Source of the DNA: Candidatus Hydrogenedentota bacterium
GTDB lineage: Bacteria > Hydrogenedentota > Hydrogenedentia > Hydrogenedentales > SLHB01
NCBI GenBank assembly: GCA_016215105.1
Contig: JACRLJ010000094.1
Coordinates: 24,411 to 58,097, forward strand
Direction: 5' to 3'
Length of the DNA: 33,687 nucleotides
Made by a program: the position numbers and the translations under genes. The notes beneath the pieces are model-generated. The model was not told the origin of the DNA. It worked only from the letters and a program-made list of their open reading frames with translations, and searched no databases. Of the stretch, positions 24,882-30,454 are shown piece by piece (the first letter of the stretch is position 1; each line of letters opens with the position of its first letter).

Positions 24882-25274
24882 ATGCGCACTCCAGGACGAG
24901 ACAAACATACCGATACCGACGATATCGAGGATAGAGCCTTTGAGTTCGCGGCTGCGATCGTGCGCTTGGTCCGCGAGCACGAAAATGAAATGCCACGGCC
25001 GATGTCAGAGGCGTTGGTTCGCAGTGGCGCCACCATAGGCTCGCACATTCTTCAGGCCAACAATGGCCAGAGCAGACGAAACTTTCTCTCCCAAATGACC
25101 TCTGCGCGAAAGCTTAGCCTCGAAGTAAGCTACTGGCTGAAGCTGCTACTGGTATGCGGAATTACCACCAAGACGGACGTGCGCCCGTTCCTCGAGGTGG
25201 CGCACGATCTCCGCGTGGATCTGACTACGATCTGCGCAAAAGCCAGGACTCAGTTGGAGACGGACAAATCGTAG
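24882..25274 (+). CDS. Four-helix bundle protein (S23/IVP family)
   Basis: This 130-aa protein fits the four-helix bundle family first seen inside 23S rRNA intervening sequences (TIGR02436-type): FEFAAAIVRLVREHENEMP, the conserved LVRSGATIGSHILQA turn and the SYWLKLLL helix are in place. Such proteins are common in environmental bacteria, often outside rRNA, and their role is unknown. It starts 23 bases after cysS and may be transcribed with it. It is not in or near an rRNA gene here. A repeat-rich gap follows. Confidence 0.85.
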   Translation: MRTPGRDKHTDTDDIEDRAFEFAAAIVRLVREHENEMPRPMSEALVRSGATIGSHILQANNGQSRRNFLSQMTSARKLSLEVSYWLKLLLVCGITTKTDVRPFLEVAHDLRVDLTTICAKARTQLETDKS

Positions 25275-27897: not shown

Positions 27898-29319
27898 TCA
27901 GATCACTTCCCACTCGTCTTGCACATACGGCTGGAAGATCCGTTTCCGGTCCGCTTCGAGCATGCGCGGGCGTGGTTTGAGCGTCCCTTCAATCGAGGGA
28001 AAGCGCACGAATCGTTGTTTGCTTTGTTCGTAGCGGCTGATCACGTGAAGGTACAACATGAGCCGGGCGGTTCGCTTCTGGCGCGGAGTGGTGTAGTACA
28101 CCGTGAGCCCGTGTTCAATGGCGTGGTGCAGACGGTCTCCCAGCGCGTGAGGCCGCGCCGCGTTCAACTCCGACCATGCGAAGAGGTCCAGTTCGTCATG
28201 TTCCTGCGTCCGTGGCTGGGCGCTGTGCGAAAAATCCGTATCGAGCCGATCGTACAGCGCCGCCAACTTGTCAAACCATTGCAGAATTGCGCGGTATCCT
28301 TCATCGCTGATGTCCACTTCAATGTGTACGCTATCCACGGTTGCCACGGTCTGCATACCGAGATAGGCGTTGCGATCCGCGTTCTCCTCCGGGATCATCC
28401 GTACCCGCGCCTTCTCGGCCGCTTCGCCGTAGTTGAAGCTCTCGAGAATGGTCGCAATGGTGAACTTGCAGCGTGACAACAGTGAGAATTCGCGGAGCAG
28501 CGGCGCCGCAATGACGTCCTGTTCCAGCACCGCGTCCAAGGCCGGCGCGGCGGCGAACAACTCCGTCTTGAGATCAAGCCAGATATCGTGAAACAGCGCG
28601 ACGAGCTGCTGCCCGCATCCCTGCGGGGATGGGCCGAAGGCCAGCGCCAGCAGGTCAGAGTAGCGTTGCTGCAAGCGCCATCCAGGCCGCTTGAGGATAT
28701 CGTGGTCAAAAAGATACCGCAATACCAGCAGCCGGTCGATGGCCTGATGGGCAAGCTCCTCGGGCACGTGTGGCTCGCCGCTCAAGGTCTCGCACCACCG
28801 TTGACACCACTCGCGCAACTGCCTCGCGAGATAGCTGCGGGGCTGGCGACGGACCTCTTCGAGCGATCCGTGCTCGACGTCGCTCCGGCTCAGCGCTCCA
28901 CCAAACTCCTGATTGAACTGCGCGGGCGTGTCGGCGTGCAGCAACAACTCGTCGGTCCGCACGTCGTATAGGTACGAGCGATGCAGGTCGGTGATGAACG
29001 CATAGGAGGCGTTGAGGCCGTGGGTCGCGTCGACCAGGGCGCGCGTGACCTCGCAATAATCCAAGCCCCGCTCGACCAAGGCTCTTGGCGACTCGAGCGA
29101 CCCCGGCATCAGAAAGTGCGCGACCGCCGCGCTCTGAGAACCGCCGCGCAAGATATAGGACAACGTGCCTGGCGGCCGCCGGTCGATTGGCGGCGGATTA
29201 TTCCAACCCAGCAATGTCAGAAATCGCTCCGCATAGCGATGCTGCTCGGCCTTGGTCGAGTCCGCCAGGGTTTCCCACCAGGATTCACACAGTTTGGCAA
29301 TGTCCTGCGCCGTTCCCAT
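27898..29319 (-). CDS. Uncharacterised 473-aa protein, type IIG-restriction-like N-terminal flavour
   Basis: This 473-aa, probably cytoplasmic protein has no signal peptide or transmembrane segment. The N-terminal half (WWETLADSTKAEQHRYAERF, LLGW, then DLHRSYLYDVRTDELLLHADTP and VRRQPRSYLARQLREWCQRW) reminds me of the N-terminal and helical regions of Eco57I/MmeI-type (type IIG/IIL) restriction-modification proteins. However, no methyltransferase motif (NPPY, FxGxG) and no clear PD-ExK nuclease triad is present, so the resemblance is weak. The C-terminal half is helical and rich in charged residues. Its ATG abuts the stop of the upstream winged-helix gene with no gap, so the two form one transcription unit and probably one functional pair. 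Function unknown. Confidence 0.8.
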   Translation of the reverse strand: MGTAQDIAKLCESWWETLADSTKAEQHRYAERFLTLLGWNNPPPIDRRPPGTLSYILRGGSQSAAVAHFLMPGSLESPRALVERGLDYCEVTRALVDATHGLNASYAFITDLHRSYLYDVRTDELLLHADTPAQFNQEFGGALSRSDVEHGSLEEVRRQPRSYLARQLREWCQRWCETLSGEPHVPEELAHQAIDRLLVLRYLFDHDILKRPGWRLQQRYSDLLALAFGPSPQGCGQQLVALFHDIWLDLKTELFAAAPALDAVLEQDVIAAPLLREFSLLSRCKFTIATILESFNYGEAAEKARVRMIPEENADRNAYLGMQTVATVDSVHIEVDISDEGYRAILQWFDKLAALYDRLDTDFSHSAQPRTQEHDELDLFAWSELNAARPHALGDRLHHAIEHGLTVYYTTPRQKRTARLMLYLHVISRYEQSKQRFVRFPSIEGTLKPRPRMLEADRKRIFQPYVQDEWEVI

Positions 29320-29925
29320 TTACGCCACACCTTTCCCTTTGTCTACGGCATGTCCCGCGGCTTCGATTCGCCGCCAAATCACATCATCCCGCCGCCCAAG
29401 CATGTCCACGCTGCCACCCAAGAAATCCGCTAACGCCGCCGATCGTTCGACGAGCGCGCGCTCGAACTCTTCGCTGCTCATAATCTCGAGTGTGTACGGA
29501 GCCGGAACACCAAACGAGGGTCGTCTCGCCGCATGGGTTACGATCAACACCCGCTGCGCCGTTGCATTCAAGAAGGCCGCGCGCACATCCTCGTCAACGG
29601 CGGCGATGCCGCGTATGTAGTCGTGCGCCGCCGCCGCCTTCAAGACCATGCCGCGCAACTCCGGAAACAGCGGATGCTGCAAATCTACCTGGTAGTAAGT
29701 TCTGTTTCCCTCGGCGCGGCGATAGAGCAGTCCTGCCGAACCCAGCCGGTCTAATTCGCGCTGAATCGCGCGAAGCGGAAGCCCCGTTGCGCCTTCAATT
29801 TGCCGCTGATAGTAGGACCGCCGCGGGTCCAGCATAAACAGACGCAGAACCGCGACTCGCGCCGAAGACGCGAGTATTCGCGTTAGCGATTCTTCAATAG
29901 CCTTTTGACTACCATTTAGCGTCAT
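29320..29925 (-). CDS. Winged-helix regulator with degenerate nucleotidyltransferase-like domain
   Basis: This 201-aa protein has a winged helix-turn-helix domain in its N-terminal half (ILASSARVAVLRLFML, YYQRQIEGATGLPLRAIQRELDRL, wing GLLYRRAEGNRTYYQV). In known proteins of this layout the second half is a MNT-type nucleotidyltransferase with a GSxARG...DxD active site. Here the corresponding stretch (QRVLIVTHAARRPSFG and IMSSEEFERALVE) keeps the outline but has no GS or DxD, so it is predicted to be catalytically dead, perhaps a ligand-binding or protein-contact module. The start at 29925 follows from homology and the palindrome and -10 box upstream. The next gene begins at the base after its stop codon. 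It is likely the autoregulator of the pair. Confidence 0.8.
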   Translation of the reverse strand: MTLNGSQKAIEESLTRILASSARVAVLRLFMLDPRRSYYQRQIEGATGLPLRAIQRELDRLGSAGLLYRRAEGNRTYYQVDLQHPLFPELRGMVLKAAAAHDYIRGIAAVDEDVRAAFLNATAQRVLIVTHAARRPSFGVPAPYTLEIMSSEEFERALVERSAALADFLGGSVDMLGRRDDVIWRRIEAAGHAVDKGKGVA

Positions 29926-29940
29926 TAAGTTCTGTACTGG

Positions 29941-29956
29941 TTGTTATTAATAGCAA
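29941..29956. promoter_or_regulatory. Candidate operator of the winged-helix gene
   Basis: TTGTTATTAATAGCAA is a 16-bp palindrome with a single mismatched pair. It spans the predicted transcription start of the winged-helix gene, between its -10 box and its ATG at 29925. A dimeric winged-helix protein bound here would block its own promoter. Confidence 0.5.
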
Positions 29957-29961
29957 GTATA
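29956..29961 (-). promoter_or_regulatory. -10 box for the winged-helix/unknown-protein operon
   Basis: TATACT on the minus strand, 31 bases before the ATG at 29925, lies in a notably AT-rich stretch. No clear -35 element is found at 16-18 bases, so the promoter may need an activator. Confidence 0.4.
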
Positions 29962-30454
29962 CGAGTCTAAATAGGCGCATCTTGGTGATATATTTTTTCA
30001 ATTTTCGGGCTAATATATGAACTAACTGCGCAGAAGTCAAGACTATTCTTGTGCAGATGACCAAAAATATGGCTCAATAGGTGTGAGTCCTGGTCATCCG
30101 CCGCCGAGGGGCCACCCAAGTTTCAGCGCGGTCCGACCTCGATCTTCCTGACCGGAAGGTGACTCAGAGCTACCCAACCCAACTGCGTTCGCGAAGGGAG
30201 GCGTACGTGCAGCGCCGGTCGGCCCATTCGTACTTAACGGGCGCGAACCCGCGGGTGGTTTGACTACGCTCGCGTAGCTCCTATATCGAGAAAGCAACAA
30301 TTACGTCGGATTAGCCTTTTTGAGCGAGGCCCTTTTCGGCCGCCGCCACGAGAGTTGGCCGGAGGCATTTTCTCGCATAAGTCGGTCGGAAGCCGAAGCT
30401 TCGCACTTGGCCAGCTCGCGCGCCGCGTTGCACGGCGCCTCTCGGGTGTCCGTG

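Follow-up and report, generated by a model that had tools for sequence, protein, structure and literature searches.

A vertically inherited two-gene operon of Hydrogenedentota with a putative restriction-enzyme pseudoenzyme

Type IIG/IIL restriction enzymes (Eco57I-class, MmeI) are proteins of ~950-1000 aa or more. P2, the larger product of the two-gene P1-P2 operon analyzed here, shares with them a collinear N-terminal nuclease-fold domain and helical connector but lacks the PD-(D/E)xK residues, SAM motif I, NPPY, and the target-recognition domain; its members are only 463-486 aa long and, unlike these enzymes, it is a vertical core gene. BREX PglX/BrxX, which also lacks a nuclease domain (PMC11341690), is the best PDB fold match of P2. 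In contrast to PglX/BrxX, P2 has neither methyltransferase motifs nor the specificity half, and brx/pgl genes were not seen around it. The second product, P1, belongs with the PDC-M05A-type winged-helix MNT proteins and is encoded upstream of its partner; in the literature, PDC-M05A appears as a nucleotidyltransferase that has a HEPN protein as its partner (PMC12988326). The HEPN/MNT layout, with the MNT gene first and coupled to its partner, holds for P1-P2, in which, however, the MNT active site is deleted, the partner is not a HEPN protein, and P1 is dispensable. With ArsR-type autorepressors, P1 has in common the DNA-binding half and, in many relatives, a conserved and putatively regulatory site in the promoter of its gene; unlike them, it also carries a dead MNT domain, with a conserved LLGRRDDVIWRRIEAAG tail. 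We found no description of the pair in the open-access literature.

Layout and promoter of the operon

The window, i.e., the whole stretch of 33,687 nucleotides of Hydrogenedentota DNA that was analyzed, carries the features of the operon listed below. Its nearest named relative and the kinship of its matches also point to this phylum.

29320..29925, minus strand: P1, 201 aa, winged-helix regulator fused to an MNT-type nucleotidyltransferase domain that has lost its active-site loop
27898..29319, minus strand: P2, 473 aa, putative type IIG restriction-enzyme-derived pseudoenzyme
30012..30040, minus strand: sigma-70-like promoter of the operon, TTGACT-N17-TATATT, 10/12 matches
29941..29956, minus strand: imperfect 16-bp palindrome in the leader, 7/8 pairs, sequence TTGCTATTAATAACAA

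An earlier note on this DNA described two minus-strand genes that abut without an intervening base and stand alone between unrelated operons. Both points hold, since the P1 stop and the P2 start are separated by a gap of 0 (boundary 29320/29319) and the neighbors, glnB-like and amt-like genes divergent from P1-P2 and a convergent secreted-protein gene, have functions unrelated to the pair. The operon was also said to lie behind its own promoter and to be laid out for self-regulation, with a palindrome over the start site. The promoter is present at 30040..30012, outside the 27898-29961 interval; TTGACT-17-TATATT is the only sigma-70-like site in 3 kb, where about one (~0.9) is expected by chance, and relatives carry TTGAC...TATACT at the equivalent position. 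The palindrome exists as well, with one exact occurrence in the genome, but it lies ~50 bases past the likely transcription start rather than over it and is conserved in none of 46 relatives, which rules it out as a conserved operator. The palindrome is the least secure part of the original observation because these AT-rich leaders often contain comparable imperfect palindromes.

The self-regulatory layout finds support in a different element, a TGACTAC site conserved in the promoters of many relatives, and not in the palindrome. Upstream of P1, 21 of 47 loci carry TGACTAC, compared with 0.6 expected; counting either strand, the number is 25 of the 47 upstream regions (at most 4 in any of 200 Markov simulations) versus 1 of 47 downstream control regions, related promoters being nonindependent observations in all of these counts. 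One group of relatives has TGACTAC between TTGAC and GTATACT at fixed spacing. The composite TTGAC-N5-TGACTAC-N5-GTATACT was found once per genome in eight genomes, at the operon promoter, with zero control matches, and a search of 12 genomes for a regulon of this composite operator, with two mismatches allowed, returned no further site. The promoter of the window itself holds only parts of the site. As far as promoter comparison goes, TGACTAC is an operon-specific conserved promoter site, and P1 is probably the autorepressor of its own operon.

Two proteins without their ancestral active sites

In the AlphaFold2 model of P1 (pLDDT 92.5), an MNT-type domain of reduced length comes after a winged helix, and Foldseek pairs the N-terminal half with ArsR-type winged helices (best E-value 1.4e-3, probability 1.00). 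When 46 P1 orthologues were aligned with 17 relatives, including same-phylum paralogues, the loop bearing GS...DxD proved to be deleted in the orthologues; under a strict pattern, the MNT active-site motif is found in 0/46 of them versus 13/17 relatives. Model, Foldseek match, and alignment with intact relatives thus uphold the earlier description of a regulator that keeps the winged-helix and MNT outline without GS...DxD. Winged-helix MNT paralogues with an intact active-site motif also occur in the phylum (L121, L122, L123, L128, and L129).

The partner had been said to resemble, weakly, the noncatalytic parts of type IIG enzymes and to have no catalytic motif. Profile-profile comparison supports the resemblance, and fold comparison does so more weakly. 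When a profile of 50 P2 members was compared with 25 type IIG sequences, residues 1-296 aligned collinearly, starting at the N terminus, with an hhalign P of 4.4e-6 and a score of 55.5 (best of 60 column shuffles, 35.7; reversed profile, 20.7). Residues 1-140 and 141-300 each beat all of their 40 shuffles when compared alone, and the profile score of the N-terminal part against MmeI was also above shuffles. We assign residues ~1-140 to a dead PD-(D/E)xK domain and residues ~141-300 to a helical domain. The AlphaFold2 model of P2 is confident (pLDDT 90.9). Its top Foldseek match in the PDB is BREX PglX (probability 0.92, E 0.06), and among the viral proteins of BFVD it matches an adenine methyltransferase (0.99) and an HsdR-N-type protein (1.00); taken alone, the fold match is weak because E-values are >0.001 and TM-scores ~0.3.

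The lack of catalytic motifs extends over every member tested. All 50 members lack the catalytic D and ExK set in the aligned nuclease columns, and SAM motif I and NPPY are present in 0/50, compared with 23/27 and 21/27, respectively, of the long ORFs of IIG loci. P2 members end before the region in which a target-recognition domain is expected, and P2 is too short for one. The most conserved segment, residues 291-345, contains 12 of the 22 invariant columns and sits where the methyltransferase would begin. No methyltransferase homology was detectable by profile comparison in the C-terminal 177 residues; a degenerate methyltransferase in residues 300-473, for which there are motif likenesses by eye, was rejected because profile scores were no better than those of shuffles. 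Pfam, NCBIfam, and PADLOC yielded no significant match to P2, and P2 is not a known enzyme. The best reading is that P2 represents a domesticated restriction-enzyme pseudoenzyme.

Distribution of the pair and loss of P1

With P2 as the query, a single locus was found in each of 60 out of 68 Hydrogenedentota genomes, most of them metagenome assembled; absences may reflect assembly gaps. In the high-quality set (>=90% complete, <=5% contaminated), the count is 36/38. Contig ends or frame breaks disrupt some P2 loci; one gene, in G024 (L079:2700-4250), is split over three frames, perhaps through sequencing or assembly error and perhaps through decay. No credible P2 match was obtained in ~318 genomes outside Hydrogenedentota, and searches of plasmid, phage, and viral-contig collections found no P2. 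A weak match in G068 was to an unrelated ORF and one at L003 was to an aldo/keto-reductase-like ORF, and both were dismissed as chance. The P2 tree tracks taxonomy, requiring 10 changes for 10 family labels, for which the minimum is 9.

In relatives, the two genes are neighbors in nearly every case. Of the 60 P2-carrying genomes, 48 have P1 immediately upstream of P2, nine have P2 without P1, and in the remaining three P2 reaches a contig end, such that P1 is not judgeable. Stop-start spacing is -4 to +2 bases in nearly all loci, the exceptions including two sister genomes with +13 and +14. These figures confirm the proposal of a real, conserved, and tightly coupled two-gene module. As judged from genome comparison, P1-P2 is a vertically inherited, coupled pair across the phylum.

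Eight of the nine genomes devoid of P1 belong to the same family, where they make up a single clade (100/100 support). TGACTA is missing from all eight promoters of this clade, and TAGTCA is kept in two. The ninth is G018, in which no trace of P1 was found and P2 directly faces the divergent glnB-like gene. P1 has been lost at least twice, in the eight-genome clade and in G018, while P2 was kept. At the G018 locus (L080:1-1300), P2 appears to be under the direct control of the old promoter, and the TGACTAC site reads GTACTAC. In the eight-genome clade, a cinA-like gene with MoCF_biosynth and CinA_KH domains follows P2 within ~20 bases (L031, L033, L036, L042, L070, L072, L074, and L077), which gives the impression of an operon reassembled around P2.

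Possible roles of the pair

Defense genes are quickly gained and lost. Here, a descendant of a restriction enzyme has been kept at one locus by almost all members of a phylum; it has lost its catalytic motifs, and one of its segments has hardly changed. This pattern suggests a former defense protein turned into a fixed part of the core genome. We favor, with moderate confidence, the explanation that P1-P2 is a vertically inherited Hydrogenedentota core operon of two pseudoenzymes, in which P2 is noncatalytic and P1 is an autorepressor. P1 would bind the TGACTAC site in the promoter and repress its own operon, and translational coupling would hold the amounts of P1 and P2 in step. P2 would be the constant, working part of the pair, most likely a noncatalytic, nucleic-acid-associated scaffold or sensor with a housekeeping role that acts through the nearly invariant segment 291-345. 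The putative association with nucleic acid is one that we infer from ancestry.

That same segment is the starting point of the strongest alternative. P2 might have gained a new catalytic activity within residues ~292-348 (ESFNxG...EK.RVR..PE.N..R...EGYR), P1 being an ordinary repressor. The 12 invariant columns in residues 291-345 are polar or charged and more numerous than a pure scaffold would seem to need, but P2 fits none of the known active-site patterns and matches no solved structure significantly, and we regard such a gain as unlikely.

The earlier note had named a toxin-antitoxin- or defense-like unit among its options, readings that the survey did not support: the locus is single, vertical, and absent from the plasmid, phage, and viral-contig collections searched, defense genes do not flank it, and nine genomes carry P2 without P1. 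An anti-phage unit, whose dead restriction-enzyme parts sense phage DNA or titrate phage anti-restriction proteins, would be in keeping with the descent of both P1 and P2 from families common in defense and with the proposal, in a review, that inactive REase domains are nucleotide sensors in BREX-related systems (PMC12839542). However, the pair is present in ~95% of high-quality genomes, and its gene surroundings vary, being mostly metabolic and kept only among close relatives, whereas true type IIG and MmeI-like enzymes are patchy in the phylum (~14/68 genomes each). Near-universal vertical distribution and metabolic surroundings argue against an ordinary defense gene. Neither brx/pgl genes nor the defense-island enrichment sought in the neighborhood survey were seen among 95 flanking proteins; PADLOC matches in the flanks are scattered, one or two at a time, and include no restriction-modification, BREX, or Cas effector model, and P2 was absent from the plasmids and phages searched. 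That the pair is neither mobile nor in defense islands speaks against both an ordinary defense unit and a toxin-antitoxin pair, and a role in anti-phage defense appears very doubtful. A toxin-antitoxin-like pair derived from the HEPN/MNT arrangement with the MNT antitoxin first, in which P2 is the toxin and P1 the DNA-binding antitoxin and autorepressor, fits the gene order, the coupling, the autoregulatory promoter, and the match of P1 to the PADLOC model PDC-M05A at 4e-21, but it is highly improbable, given that the persistence of P2 through two losses of P1 speaks against a toxin dependent on P1, that P2 has no conserved histidine and hence no HEPN Rx4-6H motif and matches IIG enzymes instead, that the nucleotidyltransferase residues are missing from P1, and that single-locus vertical inheritance is untypical of such pairs.

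A wider version of the core-operon explanation is that the phylum domesticated a type IIG enzyme into a core protein, noncatalytic or newly catalytic, with a housekeeping role, and a nucleotidyltransferase into its regulator, a new core system thereby arising from two dead defense enzymes; we put this forward as a tentative but plausible scenario. If the housekeeping role is true, P2 would be a clear case of restriction-enzyme domestication and would serve as a signature gene for Hydrogenedentota, and residues 291-345 would offer a well-marked surface for learning what a dead restriction enzyme can do.

Elsewhere in the window, a 130-aa ORF (24882..25274), located outside any ribosomal RNA intervening-sequence setting, presumably resembles the four-helix-bundle proteins that are frequent in such intervening sequences.
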